Below, in pieces: positions 2,662 through 35,684 of a stretch of DNA of 36,316 bases. Source of the DNA: a virus. Where the stretch lies: positions 1 to 36,316 of the IMG/VR virus record IMGVR_UViG_3300020172_001410; one strand, written 5' to 3'. Both the position numbers and the translations under genes were made by a program. Position 1 is the first letter of the stretch. Each line of letters opens with the position of its first letter. Below the pieces are notes generated by a model. That model worked only from the letters and a program-made list of their open reading frames with translations. It did not search any database and was not told the DNA's origin.

Positions 2662-5235
2662 TTAAGCCTTCATGTAGCTAACACGAATACGATCTCCACT
2701 CACAGGAGCGACAGCAAATGTTACTGTTCCACCAGAGATAGAGTAGTCGTTTCCAATACCAGGCTCTTGCAAGAGACCGTTCAGATACACATGCTCACTG
2801 CCTAACACAGGAGTAAATGCAAGTGAGAAGTCAGCATTACTGCCGTTGATTGAACCACTTGGAGACTCACGAGTGATAACATTTGCAACGTAGAGTACAG
2901 TTGACTCAAGCGCAGCAATATCAGACTCAGCAGTATCCATGCGTCCTTCAAGAGCAGAGATATCAGATGCAAGTCCAGCCTCAGCAGCCATAGCTCTCGA
3001 CTCTTCATCGGAGATATCAGATGCAAGTCCAGCCTCAGCAGCTTCAGCACGAGCTTGTTCAGCATCAACGTCAGCAGCACGATTGGTTACTTCAGCAGCA
3101 AGGTCAGCAGCTACGTCAGCAAGGTCAGCAGCAAGAGCAGCATCACCAGCAATACGAGCAGTTGCCTCAGCACTTACAGCAGCGGCACGAGCAGCTTCCT
3201 CGGCATCAATCTCAGCCTGAAGAGCAGCTTCGGCAGCAAGAGCACGAGTCTCTTCTGCATCAACGTCAGCAGCACGATTGGTTACTTCTGATGCAAGATC
3301 AGCAGCAACGTCGGAGATATCAGATGCAAGTCCAGCCTCAGCAGCCATAGCTCTCGACTCTTCAGCAGAGATATCAGATGCAAGTCCAGCCTCAGCAGCC
3401 ATAGCTCTCGACTCTTCTGCATCGATATTACCTTGGAGGGTAACGTCAGCAGCAGCACGAGCAGCTTCTTCAGCATCGATCTCGGACTGAAGGGCAGCTT
3501 CTGCACCCATAGCACGAGTCTCTTCTGCGTCGATGTTTCCTTGAAGGGTAACATCAGCAGCAGCACGAGCAACTTCCTCAGCATCGATCTCTGCTTGGAG
3601 AGCAGCATCAGCAGCAGCACGAGCAACTTCCTCTGCATCAACTTCAGCTTGTACAGCACCGATTTGACCAGCTACAGTTGTAGCAAAGTTTGCATCAGCT
3701 CCAAGAGCGTCACTGAGTTCCTTGAGGGTATCAAGTACACCAGGAGCACTGTTTACAAGAGCAGAAATCTCTGCATCTGTGTAGCTATTAGCACTTGCAA
3801 GTACAACAGCGTCAGCAGCCAAGTAGTCAGTCTCGATAGCATCGATGTTGCCTTGAAGAACAAGGTCAGCAGCGGCACGAGCAGCTTCTTCAGCATCAAC
3901 TTCAGCTTGAACACCTGCTACAGCAGTAATGCGAGCAGACTCTTCAGCAGCGATGTCAGAAGCCAAATCAGCCTCAGCAGCAAGAGCACGAGTCTCTTCG
4001 GCGTTTACATCTGCAATACGAGCAGCAGTCTCAGCCGAAAGATCGGCTTCAACGTCGTCAATGCGAACTCCAAGAGCAGCTTCAGCAGCACTTGCACGAA
4101 CAAGTTCTGCATCAATAGCAACTCCAGCAGCAGCCTCAGCAGCCTCGGCGCGAGCTTGTTCAGCATTTACATCTGCAATACGAGCAGCAGTCTCAGCAGC
4201 AAGGTCAACAGCTACATCAGAAATGTCTGATGCAAGTCCAGCCTCAGCAGCTTCGGCGCGAGCTTGTTCAGCATCAACGTCGGCAGCACGATTGGTTACT
4301 TCTGATGCAAGATCAGCAGCAACATCTGCGATATCAGAAGCCAATCCAGCTTCAACACCCATTGCACGAGTCTCTTCGGCAGCGATATCAGAAGCCAATC
4401 CAGCTTCAGCAGCCATCGCACGAGTTTCCTCAGCAGCAAGGTCAGATTGAAGTTCAGCAACATCAGCTTCAACAGCAGTTGCACGTCCTTCAAGAGCGTC
4501 GATGTCAAACTCTGCACCATTCAAACGACTTGTGTGAGTTGCATCAGCAGCTACACGAGCAGTTGTCTCAGCAGAAAGACCATTCTCAAGATCAGTTACA
4601 CGACCATCAAGAACAACATCAGCAGCTTCAAGAGCATTGATGTCAGACTCAGCTTGATCCATGCGAGTGTCAAGAGCAGCCTCAGCAGCCATTGCACGAG
4701 CTTCTTCAGCAGCAAGGTCATCTTGTGTTCCGTCTAATTCTGATTGAAGAGCAGCAACCGCAGCAGAGCGAGTAGCTTCTTCAGCATCAATATCAGCTTG
4801 GAGTGCAGCTTCAGCAGCACCAGCACGAGAAACTTCAGCAGCAAGTCCAGCTTCAAGAGAGTTAATGTCTCCCTCAGCAGTTGTCATGCGGCCTTCGAGA
4901 GAATCAATATCTCCCTCAGCAGTTGTCATGCGGCCTTCGATAGCATCAAGTCTTGGATCGAGATCGTCCTGTACTTGAGCACGAAGTGTCTCTAAACCAG
5001 CATCAACGTATTGTTTGTTAGCCGCATCCATAGCAGCGGTTGGAGCAGATACGTTTACAACTTTGTGTGATCCAGCATCTACGTTACCTGTAAAAGCAAC
5101 AGAACCGTCACGTTTAATGAGTTCTGCGCCTTCGGCGAGTTTTGAAAGTTCAATACCAGCGTTAGAAGCAATTTCTACGTTGGTAATAGAACTAGATTTA
5201 ATTTGTGTATTACCACGAATTTTGGTTATGGCCAT
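2662..5235 (-). CDS. Long alpha-helical tail fibre with 18-residue repeats
   Basis: This 857-residue fibre shares its first ~85 residues with the fibre at 297-2525 (MAITKIRGNTQIK, ELIKRDGSV, then a predicted 'KQYVDAGL' exit). Most of the rest, from about residue 130 to 760, is Ala/Glu-rich helix made of roughly two dozen 18-residue units such as AEESRAMAAEAGLASDIS. These are interrupted once by the common fibre segment LVNSAPGVLDTLKELSDALG. The last 71 residues are the shared beta module (ITRESPSG...VSYMKA). The composition is almost free of aromatics and cysteine. The start is supported by AAGGA eight bases before the ATG, and a late promoter lies at 5406-5413. It probably forms a trimeric helical shaft. 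It ends directly after the beta module with no obvious receptor tip, so it might be a connector or half-fibre. Confidence 0.78.
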   Translation of the reverse strand: MAITKIRGNTQIKSSSITNVEIASNAGIELSKLAEGAELIKRDGSVAFTGNVDAGSHKVVNVSAPTAAMDAANKQYVDAGLETLRAQVQDDLDPRLDAIEGRMTTAEGDIDSLEGRMTTAEGDINSLEAGLAAEVSRAGAAEAALQADIDAEEATRSAAVAALQSELDGTQDDLAAEEARAMAAEAALDTRMDQAESDINALEAADVVLDGRVTDLENGLSAETTARVAADATHTSRLNGAEFDIDALEGRATAVEADVAELQSDLAAEETRAMAAEAGLASDIAAEETRAMGVEAGLASDIADVAADLASEVTNRAADVDAEQARAEAAEAGLASDISDVAVDLAAETAARIADVNAEQARAEAAEAAAGVAIDAELVRASAAEAALGVRIDDVEADLSAETAARIADVNAEETRALAAEADLASDIAAEESARITAVAGVQAEVDAEEAARAAADLVLQGNIDAIETDYLAADAVVLASANSYTDAEISALVNSAPGVLDTLKELSDALGADANFATTVAGQIGAVQAEVDAEEVARAAADAALQAEIDAEEVARAAADVTLQGNIDAEETRAMGAEAALQSEIDAEEAARAAADVTLQGNIDAEESRAMAAEAGLASDISAEESRAMAAEAGLASDISDVAADLASEVTNRAADVDAEETRALAAEAALQAEIDAEEAARAAAVSAEATARIAGDAALAADLADVAADLAAEVTNRAADVDAEQARAEAAEAGLASDISDEESRAMAAEAGLASDISALEGRMDTAESDIAALESTVLYVANVITRESPSGSINGSNADFSLAFTPVLGSEHVYLNGLLQEPGIGNDYSISGGTVTFAVAPVSGDRIRVSYMKA
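2957..4842 (-). repeat. Array of 54-bp (18-codon) repeats
   Basis: Units of 54 bases encode the consensus AEExRAxAAEAxLxxxID/S. The clearest tandem DNA pairs are 2957-3010 with 3011-3064 and 3314-3367 with 3368-3421; the latter pair is almost base-identical. Other units have diverged but keep the period. Eighteen residues equals 7+11, or exactly five turns at 3.6 residues per turn. Confidence 0.75.
3701..3760 (-). repeat. 60-bp module nearly identical to 7940-7999
   Basis: By eye, 57 of 60 bases are identical between this segment and 7940-7999 in the neighbouring fibre gene. Both encode the fibre segment 'LVNSAP.VLDTLKELSDALG'. A third, more diverged protein-level copy lies near residues 569-602 of the 1,000-residue fibre. 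Confidence 0.75.
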
Positions 5236-5405: not shown

Positions 5406-5413
5406 TATTTATA
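5406..5413 (-). promoter_or_regulatory. T4-type late promoter TATAAATA
   Basis: The minus strand reads TATAAATA, an exact match to the T4 late promoter box. It lies in a true intergenic gap downstream of a hairpin and upstream of the fibre gene starting at 5235. No -35 element is expected for this class. Confidence 0.75.
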
Positions 5414-20198: not shown

Positions 20199-20206
20199 TA
20201 TTTATC
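20199..20206 (-). promoter_or_regulatory. Late promoter-like box GATAAATA before the giant gene
   Basis: The minus strand reads GATAAATA, overlapping the last codons of the gp8 gene. If used, RNA would start only a few bases before the ATG at 20188, giving an almost leaderless message. That is consistent with the lack of a ribosome binding site there but unusual. Confidence 0.4.
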
Positions 20207-27201: not shown

Positions 27202-27209
27202 TATTTATG
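27202..27209 (-). promoter_or_regulatory. T4-type late promoter box CATAAATA before gp25
   Basis: The minus strand reads CATAAATA in the 62-base gap between the membrane protein gene and gp25. It fits NATAAATA and would drive the compact gp25-gp6-gp7-gp8 run. Its position favours the ATG at 27165 as the gp25 start. Confidence 0.65.
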
Positions 27210-31719: not shown

Positions 31720-33522
31720 TTATTTTATCTGTTTTGTGAGAAGTCCACACAACTCATTTATCTGACTTGTGGTGGCGGTTCCTCGAAACGTCGTGGATAT
31801 GCTCGCGGAAGAAATCACGGTCTTTTCATTCGTCTTCGCAAGAACATACACTTGTGAAAAGTATTTTGACAGTTCTGGTATAACAACACTCAGTTGGTTG
31901 CTGCCATTTTGAAGTGTAGTAGTTGCGTAGTTGGAACAACCGTACAACTTGTTTCCTGGCGTCTTCAACACAAACTGAATCCTGGCTGATGTTGCTGCTG
32001 TGGAAAATCCAGAGATAGAAACTGTTGTTGTATCTCCAAGACTTACAGTAGATGGATTAAACGACACCTGAGGGTTCGGAGTAGGCGTATTCGTAGGCGT
32101 CTGTGTTGGCGTGGCAGTTGCTGTGGGTGTATGCGTATACGTTGGTGTTGAAGTGATTGTCGGGGTGAATGTTGGTGTGGGTTGTGGCGTGCCTGTACCT
32201 ACAGGTGCTGTAGTGGGGACCGTCGTGGGTGCTGCCGTAGGTACAGCACAAGTGCTATTTGCTGCATATACGGCGCCAACTGCATTTGCCAAAGATGCGC
32301 TCGAAACTTTGCCCTGTAGTGCTGATAGTTTCAGTCCGTTGTTTAGTATGACACTTCTGACCTGAGCTACAGATAAGTTACATACAGAATTTGTGAGTAC
32401 AGCCAAGCCAGAAACGTGCGGCGCTGCCATCGATGTGCCACTTTTGTATCCGTACTTATGCTTTAGAATTGAGCTTAGTATGCCCGATCCGGGCGCTGCT
32501 ATATGCACAGACGTTGCGCCGTAGTTCGAGAATGATGATAGTGAGCCGCTCGATGTCACTGATGCTACAGAGATGACGTTACCTGCCGAATAGTTAGCAG
32601 GATATGATGGATAAACATCCGTGTTTGCTGCACTATTTCCCGCAGATGCTACAAAGAGTATACCTTCACTTTCGGCCAATTTTACTACATCGAGAAACGG
32701 CTTAGAAAATGCACTAGAGCCATACGAGTTGTTCATCACAACAACTTTATGTCCAGCCCGCTTGAGGGCGATGCCGTAATTGATTGCACGAATGGCGTTT
32801 ACAGAACTACCAACACCAGACGATGACAAAAACTTCATACTGACGAGTTTAAGTTTATGTGCTATGCCAGCGATTCCTATTGTGTTGTTACCCACTGCGC
32901 CGATAATACCAGCAACATGTGTGCCGTGTCCATTGTCGTCTATGCCAGAACCAATTCTTGTGATGGCATTCATGCCATTCACATCGTCGATGTAGCCATT
33001 GTAATCATCGTCGAGTCCATTATTCGGAACTTCTTTGGGGTTCACCCAGATATTCTGCGCCAAGTCTGGATGATGAACTTCTATTCCAGTGTCGATGACT
33101 AGCGCCAACAAATCATCTTTGCCTGTAGTAACGTCCCACGCTCCGGGAGCTGCCATCAGTTGTGGACCATACTGATAGCTATAATACACATCGTCGGGGG
33201 TTGATGTTATAGTGAGCGCATTATTAGCAACACAAAGTATTTTGCCTTTTGACGCTTTTTGAATTCTTCGTATGCTTGCTTTTCGACACAACGAAGATGA
33301 ACGATTATACACTAGAGGAACATCTCGATTCTGTCTCTTATCTGCCACAAATACTGAGCTGCTGGACAGCTTCTCGTAATTCAAATTGGCAAACTTATGC
33401 GACTTATATGAGACGCCTCGATGTGATGTTAGAATCACACCCGAATAGACCGACCGTTCTTCTGCACTCACTGTTGATACGACAACAAGGAGGGCTGCAA
33501 CAATTTTCACAAACGCTTTCAT
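31720..33522 (-). CDS. Secreted subtilisin-family (S8) serine protease
   Basis: The 600-residue protein begins with a signal peptide (MKAFVKIVAALLVVVSTVSA, cleavage likely after residue 20). A prodomain-like segment runs to about 115. The subtilase domain runs from about 118 to 420, with a complete triad: D144 in ALVIDTGIEVHHPDL, H199 in DDNGHGTHVAG and S364 in SGTSMAAPHVSG, plus oxyanion N296 in SAGNS. An insert with NNGLDDDYNGYIDD (about 167-180) is typical of many bacterial secreted subtilases and may bind calcium. Residues 428-483 are a Thr/Pro-rich linker (TPTATATPTQTPTNTPTP), followed by a beta-sandwich-like C-terminal domain. There are six cysteines. I prefer the ATG at 33522: GGAG lies eight bases upstream and the signal peptide begins there, whereas the longer frame to 33555 adds eleven residues in front. 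The protein should leave the cytoplasm or act at cell or virion surfaces. Confidence 0.93.
   Translation of the reverse strand: MKAFVKIVAALLVVVSTVSAEERSVYSGVILTSHRGVSYKSHKFANLNYEKLSSSSVFVADKRQNRDVPLVYNRSSSLCRKASIRRIQKASKGKILCVANNALTITSTPDDVYYSYQYGPQLMAAPGAWDVTTGKDDLLALVIDTGIEVHHPDLAQNIWVNPKEVPNNGLDDDYNGYIDDVNGMNAITRIGSGIDDNGHGTHVAGIIGAVGNNTIGIAGIAHKLKLVSMKFLSSSGVGSSVNAIRAINYGIALKRAGHKVVVMNNSYGSSAFSKPFLDVVKLAESEGILFVASAGNSAANTDVYPSYPANYSAGNVISVASVTSSGSLSSFSNYGATSVHIAAPGSGILSSILKHKYGYKSGTSMAAPHVSGLAVLTNSVCNLSVAQVRSVILNNGLKLSALQGKVSSASLANAVGAVYAANSTCAVPTAAPTTVPTTAPVGTGTPQPTPTFTPTITSTPTYTHTPTATATPTQTPTNTPTPNPQVSFNPSTVSLGDTTTVSISGFSTAATSARIQFVLKTPGNKLYGCSNYATTTLQNGSNQLSVVIPELSKYFSQVYVLAKTNEKTVISSASISTTFRGTATTSQINELCGLLTKQIK
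32074..32241 (-). repeat. Low-complexity Thr/Pro linker coding repeat
   Basis: About 56 codons alternate ACN and CCN, giving GT-rich plus-strand DNA. They encode the flexible linker between the protease domain and the C-terminal beta domain. Such tracts are common in secreted bacterial enzymes and rare in phage virion proteins. Confidence 0.8.
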
Positions 33523-33564
33523 AATGACATTCTCCAAAAGTAGTAATATACGCACCTACATTGG

Positions 33565-33592
33565 AGTATAGCATAATGTGTGAATCCACACA
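33565..33592 (-). promoter_or_regulatory. Putative protease promoter with operator-like inverted repeat
   Basis: TATACT (33570-33565) is preceded by TGC, an extended -10. Just upstream, where a -35 box would lie, is the inverted repeat TGTGTG-GATT-CACACA (33592-33577 on the minus strand). No good -35 hexamer is seen, which is tolerated with an extended -10. The predicted leader to the ATG at 33522 is about 35 bases with a good GGAG site. The inverted repeat could bind a regulator. Confidence 0.5.
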
Positions 33593-34339: not shown

Positions 34340-34684
34340 TCAATCCAAATACTTCTTTATATTCCTAAGATATTCATCGATGTGGAGTGTGACACAAGCT
34401 CTCTCAACTTTTCCTATTAGCGTGTTGCATTGTCCACACAAAATTCCTCTAACTTTTCCTGTTGTGTGGCAGTGGTCTATAACTCCAGCCTGATTGTCAT
34501 TAACAAACAGACCCACTTCACATCGACACAATTTACACCTACATTTTTGTAAAGTTAAAAGAGCTTTCTGTTGAATTCTGTTCAGTCCATATCTCATTAA
34601 GCCGTTTTTGCACGTTTTGCATTGTAGCCCTTCGTGATACACAAACTCATTCAATTCTATGCTGCAATGTTTGCATCTTTTCAT
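34340..34684 (-). CDS. Recombination endonuclease VII-like nuclease
   Basis: The 114-residue protein carries the endonuclease VII/HNH signature IDHCHTTGKVRGILCGQCN followed by LIGKV. D70, H71 and H73 are likely catalytic or metal-binding. Two further cysteine pairs, C4/C7 and C22/C25, precede a cluster C48, C50, C53, C55 that with C83/C86 would hold structural zinc. T4 gp49 (157 residues) resolves branched DNA before packaging. Many phages also carry short free-standing homologues like this, so the role may be junction resolution or DNA nicking/homing. I chose the ATG at 34684, preceded by GGAG at nine bases. An in-frame GTG at 34729 would give 129 residues but lacks such a site. The GGAG lies inside a hairpin (34689-34708). 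Confidence 0.82.
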   Translation of the reverse strand: MKRCKHCSIELNEFVYHEGLQCKTCKNGLMRYGLNRIQQKALLTLQKCRCKLCRCEVGLFVNDNQAGVIDHCHTTGKVRGILCGQCNTLIGKVERACVTLHIDEYLRNIKKYLD

Positions 34685-34688
34685 ATCA

Positions 34689-34708
34689 GCAATCTCCAGC
34701 GAGATTGC
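34689..34708 (-). promoter_or_regulatory. Hairpin hiding the ribosome binding site of the endonuclease gene
   Basis: On the minus strand GCAATCTC (34708-34701), loop GCTG, and GAGATTGC (34696-34689) form a perfect 8-bp stem, extendable by a G-U pair. The Shine-Dalgarno GGAG comprises the last loop base and the first three bases of the 3' arm. The ATG follows four bases after the stem. Confidence 0.7.
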
Positions 34709-34733
34709 CCGGTGAGCAGAATACAACACACAT

Positions 34734-35117
34734 TTAGACGGAACTGCTTTTTACTATTTTATTCAAATACTCAAGCATCCACCAATGCCAAGTATCAACA
34801 TCGTAGCTATACTCAACACCTTCTTTATTGACTCGAAAGTATTGTTGTGGAAATTCTTTGTATGCTTGAAGTTTAAGATCCAAGTCGAGTGTGACACCGA
34901 ACGTATTAGTCTTGGGCTTCATAATCTCATACACTCGGCGAGCTGCTTGCTCTGCCGTATCTTGAGGAAACTGTTCACGATTGTATGTAATGCCTGATGT
35001 TTTAATCGACAGAACTTTAGGACCATTAGGTTCTGCAATAAGCACTGACGGTTCTGTAGGTTCGGCGAACTTAAATCCTAGACTCTGCGTATTGTTCCAC
35101 TCGTATTGATTAAACAT
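34734..35117 (-). CDS. Protein of unknown function
   Basis: The 127-residue protein (MFNQYEWNNTQSLGFKFAEP...) is mixed alpha/beta, with EPSVLIAEPNGPKVLSIKTS and EQAARRVYEIMKPK. It ends with an aromatic-rich stretch (YDVDTWHWWMLEYLNKIVKS). There are no cysteines and no signal. It lies three bases after the upstream 187-residue gene and 49 bases before the endonuclease ATG. No family was recognised. Confidence 0.5.
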   Translation of the reverse strand: MFNQYEWNNTQSLGFKFAEPTEPSVLIAEPNGPKVLSIKTSGITYNREQFPQDTAEQAARRVYEIMKPKTNTFGVTLDLDLKLQAYKEFPQQYFRVNKEGVEYSYDVDTWHWWMLEYLNKIVKSSSV

Positions 35118-35120
35118 AGC

Positions 35121-35684
35121 TTACGTCCACATAAAGCCACGATACTTAATTACTTTGTTCAACATTTCAGTATCCTCTTTTTCATACTGTTGTTCAATTT
35201 TAACTGTGCGTTTTATTAATTTGTCTGCAACTTTATCGGGCGATGTATAATTACGAGCATTAGGATTATTGTTTGCATAATCTATAAGTCCTGAAGCAAC
35301 ATCAGGATCAATTCTGTTTGGTCTAACGTCTTTCCACCACAAATACACTTCACGGATTGCTTTTGGCGCATCGCTTGGATTTTTAACTAGATCGCTATAT
35401 GTTTCTTCGAGCATTTTTATATGCCGCAACCCCAGCTCTCTATTACGATAGACTTCATCACTTCTCAGAAACCACGGCAGTTTGAAATTGATTCTCTGTC
35501 GTAACGTATATGGAGCGTCAAGCTCCATGAATGAACATTCAACTTCAACAAAATCTACAACAATTTGCATGACGGCATAAAGCAAGATGGTGTCCTTGTC
35601 CCAGTAATTCGGAGACAACTCCCGGATCTTGAGAACATTGTACCGCTTAGTGCTACGAAATGCGATCCAATCCAACAGTTTCAT
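35121..35684 (-). CDS. Conserved phage hypothetical protein (VDFVE/YLWWK type)
   Basis: The 187-residue protein has two blocks that I recognise from a common phage hypothetical family: YWDKDTILLYAVMQIVVDFV followed by EVE (27-49), and AIREVYLWWKDVRPNR (in the middle). The family is mostly helical and found in unrelated tailed phages; its function is unknown to me. The ATG overlaps the stop of the upstream zinc-ribbon gene as ATGA, so translation is coupled, and AAAGAG precedes it. Confidence 0.6.
   Translation of the reverse strand: MKLLDWIAFRSTKRYNVLKIRELSPNYWDKDTILLYAVMQIVVDFVEVECSFMELDAPYTLRQRINFKLPWFLRSDEVYRNRELGLRHIKMLEETYSDLVKNPSDAPKAIREVYLWWKDVRPNRIDPDVASGLIDYANNNPNARNYTSPDKVADKLIKRTVKIEQQYEKEDTEMLNKVIKYRGFMWT

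Follow-up and report, generated by a model that had tools for sequence, protein, structure and literature searches.

We identified, in a T4-like myovirus, a gene for an endonuclease VII (EndoVII)-family nuclease whose Shine-Dalgarno (SD) is predicted to be locked in an RNA hairpin. The gene lies in the analysed 36,316-nucleotide stretch of DNA, here referred to as the window, which is a piece of the phage genome that also carries several T4-type baseplate genes. We consider it probable that this is a horizontally gained, free-standing, homing-endonuclease-like gene with the EndoVII (DHHRN) motif, that its translation is throttled by the hairpin over the SD, and that its nearest kin is a tRNA-linked mobile cassette. 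This reading is built on the predicted pairing of the SD, its recurrence in six relatives, the positions of late boxes in those relatives, the release predicted for them, and one empty insertion site. More interesting than the analogy with T4 gene 49, drawn in the first-pass annotation, is the broader picture of EndoVII cassettes associated with tRNA genes, in one clear case with a tRNA that was split and replaced.

Table 1. Positions of the nuclease gene, its leader and its neighbours in the window
Feature	Position	Strand	Basis or remark
EndoVII-family (DHHRN-type) nuclease gene, 114 aa; ATG 34684, stop 34340-34342	34340..34684	minus	PF02945, PHROGs, common start
SD, GGAG	34694..34697	minus	Sequence; one loop base and three stem bases
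Hairpin, 8 Watson-Crick pairs and one G-U, loop GCTG	34688..34709	minus	Folding and opening energy (9.9 kcal/mol, predicted)
15-codon ORF, MCVVFCSPGNLAGDC then stop	34686..34733	minus	Sequence; candidate for translational release
Upstream gene, 127 aa; stop TAA 34736-34734	34734..35117	minus	Homologues in L016 and L017, same locus
Downstream gene, 60 aa	34137..34319	minus	With the 127- and 187-aa genes, borders the slot holding tRNA-Thr(UGU) in L017 and L018

The nuclease and its buried Shine-Dalgarno

The product matched PF02945 with an E-value of 8e-15 (54.9 bits against a curated cut-off of 23.6) and several PHROG families named endonuclease VII. Two C-x2-C pairs around D-H-x-H, followed by R and N, are conserved in the family and present in the window protein (C50, C53, D70, H71, H73, R79, C83, C86 and N87), the reading frame and catalytic residues of which are intact. 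Searched against solved structures, a profile built from six family members hit T4 EndoVII (1.7e-10) and Hpy99I (7e-7); T4 EndoVII also came first in a Foldseek comparison that used an AlphaFold model of moderate confidence (mean pLDDT 71). The catalytic motif occupies residues 50-87, in the C-terminal half, with no C-terminal domain after it, and such a position is typical of the endonuclease clade, not the resolvase clade (Fang et al., PMC6083498). The window protein thus carries the D, H, H, R and N residues and the C-terminal motif of a DHHRN homing endonuclease such as F-CphI, and does not have the N-terminal motif and further C-terminal domain of a gp49-type resolvase. Given its motif position, the missing C-terminal domain, its patchy presence and its tRNA-linked kin, it looks like a free-standing homing endonuclease rather than a gp49-type resolvase. 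No isolated phage was found with a member of its subfamily at 60% identity or more, and a scan of genome contigs gave one distant match.

All six near homologues begin with M-K-x-C-K-H-C, which the window protein shares, at the point matching ATG 34684; this ATG is therefore the likely start, and GTG 34729, which was also considered, is disfavoured. The sense strand of both gene and hairpin is the minus strand. The sole good SD of the gene (34697-34694) stands 9 nt upstream of the ATG, and the stem is formed by GCAATCTC (34708-34701) and GAGATTGC (34696-34689) around the loop (34700-34697), with a G-U pair (34709/34688) extending it. Sequence and folding bore out the earlier description of an 8-bp stem with a 4-base loop covering most of the only good SD, and the hairpin over the SD is confirmed. 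A motif scan likewise agreed that no late box lies between the hairpin and the ATG; there was no ATAAATA near the window gene.

The predicted cost of opening the SD was the second highest of 74 gene starts taken from this contig and related ones (median 2.6 kcal/mol) and was reached in 10 of 2000 leader shuffles in which GGAG was kept fixed. The folding z-score was -2.2 for an 81-nt stretch. Perfect stems of at least 8 bp number four in the window, with 3.7 +/- 1.8 in shuffles; the stem per se is unremarkable, and it is its position over the SD that stands out. An Rfam search with the hairpin returned nothing useful. We also examined whether the hairpin derives from a tRNA or from a cassette leader that has diverged, and rejected both as no significant similarity was found; since the leader resembles no cassette leader or tRNA, the hairpin may have a separate origin.

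The genomic spot of the window gene

No EndoVII match was detected in the examined contigs of four syntenic relatives (L016, L017, L018 and L024), but the spot is also rearranged. L016, with a baseplate wedge protein 79% identical to that of the window, has its 187-aa and 60-aa genes abutting, while in L017 and L018 a tRNA-Thr(UGU) occupies the slot of the window nuclease gene. The order of the 127-aa and 187-aa genes in the window (34734-35684) is opposite to that in L016, which indicates a rearranged spot beside the nuclease gene. A neighbour-gene scan with the 127-aa protein gave no match. There is no tRNA in the window, and hence the gene end has no tRNA overlap. In L017 (2290-2300), the 127-aa gene terminates at the TAG that forms positions 8-10 of the tRNA-Thr, a cassette-like overlap without a nuclease.

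A subtilase (S8) gene of the same lineage has a similar leader in the window (33522-33582, minus strand), L016 (3130-3192) and L017 (3117-3179), with the pattern TGCTATACT...GTAGGTGCG...TTTGGAG-ATG, likely an extended -10 promoter followed by a leader. Its SD is likewise predicted to be buried (7.0-9.8 kcal/mol in the three).

Six tRNA-linked cassettes share the leader design

The nearest homologues of the window protein, at 41-61% identity, come from six distinct cassettes (L108, L027, L119, L026, L109 and L128, the last on four contigs). In all six, an SD hairpin whose 5′ half or loop contains the T4 late box TATAAATA comes first, followed by the EndoVII gene and an intact tRNA, and the box begins 25-38 nt 5′ of the ATG. 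The nuclease gene always ends inside that tRNA (Thr in L108, Asn in L027, Arg in L119 and L026, Pro in L109 and L128), its stop being the TAG at tRNA positions 8-10 in five of the six. Opening the SD on a long RNA is predicted to cost 6.6-13.7 kcal/mol, for which L026 requires 80 nt of leader; when the RNA is truncated so as to begin at the predicted late start, the cost falls to 0.3-2.2 kcal/mol. Within 60 nt, a cost of at least 6.6 kcal/mol was found for 6 of the 7 family genes versus 4 of 67 other genes (p=7.5e-6), the genes compared being not entirely independent of one another, and orthologues of a single subtilase gene making up three of the four high controls.

The hairpins of L119 and L027 are recognisably related, with outer stems that differ on both sides (GUUA/UAAC versus GCA/UGC), and most other cassette hairpins are unrelated in sequence. 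The recurrent trait is the sequestration, not the stem sequence. The window protein fell inside the cassette group, together with L108 and L027, in a tree built on few columns, with modest support (84/93 and 87/81). Given this placement, the common ancestor probably had a late box and a tRNA, and the window lineage lost both; what the window copy still has is a hairpin.

A tRNA 5′ fragment upstream of the cassette is clear in L108, and in L026 through its empty site; it is suggestive in L027 and L109. None was found in L119 or L128, and the idea of such a fragment before every cassette was rejected. In L128, two different tRNA-Pro(UGG) follow the cassette (4129-4206, which overlaps the nuclease gene, and 4281-4359), an arrangement that would fit a cassette having brought its own tRNA.

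The first-pass annotation had proposed that these nucleases repeatedly need tight control. Tight control holds for the subfamily of the window gene; the general rule does not, as 19 broader EndoVII-like genes with an SD were no more sequestered than controls (median 1.6 versus 2.0, p=0.64), and general SD sequestration in EndoVII genes was thus rejected. Among control genes on other contigs, 12 of 174 reached at least 6.6 kcal/mol. A scan for TATAAATA, GGAG and M-K-x-C-K recovered the same leader design on unrelated HNH genes (L142/L144 and L149), which stand within tRNA arrays with the box inside the hairpin, and on L136. Nuclease genes in this leader scan were more sequestered than other genes (p=0.013); by a post hoc observation, the two highest of the other genes are L138, which resembles a LAGLIDADG nuclease, and L130, which resembles a truncated EndoVII gene. 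The LAGLIDADG-like L138 carries the same leader design, an SD hairpin with TATAAATA inside.

A split and replaced tRNA-Arg in L026

Three contigs (L156, L157 and L166), whose DnaB proteins are 98-99% identical to that of the L026 contig, have an intact tRNA-Arg(UCU) after dnaB. The corresponding tRNA-Arg(UCU) of L026 is split, with ~26 nt of its 5′ end upstream and ~20 nt of its 3′ end downstream, and the stretch between the two pieces holds the nuclease gene along with a tRNA-Arg(UCU) that is complete but diverged. The 5′ remnant constitutes the outer 5′ arm of the SD hairpin. The EndoVII motif occurred in none of the 80 dnaB relatives retrieved, and presence and absence at one site in close relatives is clear only for L026. 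In the papers searched, which cover open-licence text, we found no description of EndoVII cassettes tied to tRNA genes in this way.

On balance, we lean towards the view that EndoVII-type homing endonucleases invade tRNA genes of T4-like phages and carry in an additional tRNA of matching specificity that presumably resists cleavage, and that a hairpin, which can use the broken tRNA as one of its arms, delays translation until late infection. For one case, the split tRNA-Arg(UCU) of L026 with its same-anticodon replacement is direct evidence from the sequence. Here the timing, the homing activity and the cleavage of tRNA genes are what we infer. Long early transcripts of a cassette would form the hairpin and stay silent, and late transcripts would start inside the hairpin and leave the SD exposed. 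If the spare tRNA is brought along, the insertion would do little harm. Since near-identical phages exist in both states, carrying the cassette and lacking it, the claim of insertion can be tested.

Comparison with known systems

T4 gene 49 shares with the window gene the catalytic motif and an SD buried in a hairpin (7.5 kcal/mol), and its opening cost falls to 0.9 kcal/mol when the RNA starts at its late box. On the other hand, it has a resolvase-type domain order, with the motif at residues 23-62 of 157 (PMC6083498), and a late promoter at the hairpin that has no counterpart in the window. The earlier analogy with gene 49 is therefore right for the RNA logic, as the predicted sequestration of the window SD matches that of gene 49 and segB in strength and as the six near homologues have the same design with a predicted late-promoter release; that release does not extend to the window copy, and the analogy is probably wrong for the role of the protein. 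Set against the T4-type control of genes 49, e, soc, segB, I-TevI and mobE, the window shows the predicted SD sequestration and lacks a late promoter that would remove the 5′ arm of the hairpin, which all six relatives have.

T4 segB is tied to tRNAs as the cassettes are, lying between tRNA-Arg and tRNA-Ile and ending 5 nt before tRNA-Arg, and its SD hairpin (9.2 kcal/mol) is close to that of the window (9.9 kcal/mol). Its hairpin control has been grouped with that of I-TevI (PMC2988022), and the SegB protein of phage T6 cleaves within tRNA genes (PMC13096335). SegB is also a free-standing homing endonuclease, but of the GIY-YIG fold, and the window copy differs in having neither late box nor tRNA; unlike in L026, no split tRNA is annotated beside T4 segB. 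F-CphI of cyanophage S-PM2 is closer in protein type, being free-standing in a T4-like phage with an EndoVII motif (D, H, H, R, N) in the C-terminal half. It is linked to the psbA intron, not to a tRNA, and is ~32% identical to L027; our scan found no SD at its start. I-TevI, I-TevII, I-TevIII and Aeh1 mobE have an SD hairpin and a late promoter that lets late transcripts escape (PMC2988022), but these genes are intron-borne or stand among nrd genes, and their products are of the GIY-YIG or HNH type, not the EndoVII type.

How the window SD could be freed

The window copy, with a hairpin and no late box, is the odd member of the group. ATAAATA lies on the coding strand in 16 of 17 occurrences over four contigs of the window lineage (p=1.4e-4), and this near confinement makes it likely that T4-type late promoters are in use in the lineage; in the window, the motif stands at 5406-5412, 20199-20205 and 27202-27208.

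The 15-codon ORF begins with an ATG (34733) directly at the upstream stop codon, runs through the stem and stops 1 nt short of the EndoVII ATG (TAAATG...TGATATG). An ORF so placed arose in 1.3% of shuffles, and it has no clear SD of its own. Its course through the stem makes release by ribosomes from the upstream gene plausible. Ribosomes would restart at the ATG touching the upstream stop, translate through the hairpin and thereby open it, terminate at TGA 34688-34686 and initiate anew at ATG 34684. We tentatively regard this as the likeliest release in the window, at somewhat less than even chances.

Alternative explanations

The hairpin could be a relic, left on a poorly expressed gene, or one on its way out, after the late promoter and the tRNA were lost, with no active release. 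Mobile nuclease genes often decay, and the late box and tRNA of the six relatives are indeed absent from the window; however, the reading frame and the catalytic residues are intact, and the window stem matches those of the relatives in strength but differs from them in sequence, which a passive relic would not lead one to expect. We thus regard this as unlikely. Still somewhat less likely is a stem that fell on the SD by chance, with little effect on translation. The number of such stems in the window is close to the expected one (4 versus 3.7), and 12 of the 174 controls on other contigs are at least at the 6.6 kcal/mol level, but the SD-fixed shuffles (10 of 2000), the rank of the window start (2 of 74) and the sequestered SD of all the nearest homologues argue against it.

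That the window gene is instead a phage Holliday-junction resolvase, controlled like T4 gene 49, appears improbable. The EndoVII catalytic motif, the T4 EndoVII match of the predicted model and the SD hairpin would agree with it, but the motif position (50-87 of 114, with no C-terminal domain, versus 23-62 of 157 in gp49), the absence of the gene from syntenic relatives, the tRNA-linked cassettes as its kin and the missing late box all speak for another role. With regard to release, RNA processing within the hairpin could replace the lost late promoter, as its product would be the same as that of a late start, and T4 RegB acts at GGAG motifs (PMC3014915). Nevertheless, structure shields GGAG motifs from RegB (PMC3014915), the loop is only GCTG and no processing site was identified; we consider this route very improbable.

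Implications

SD hairpins with internal late promoters are already known for T4-type homing endonucleases of other folds, and the same control on a tRNA-attached EndoVII-type nuclease would extend this convergence to a further fold. The pattern also suggests that the tRNA arrays of large phages owe part of their makeup to nucleases that disrupt tRNA genes and provide substitutes for them, which bears on why these phages have so many tRNAs.
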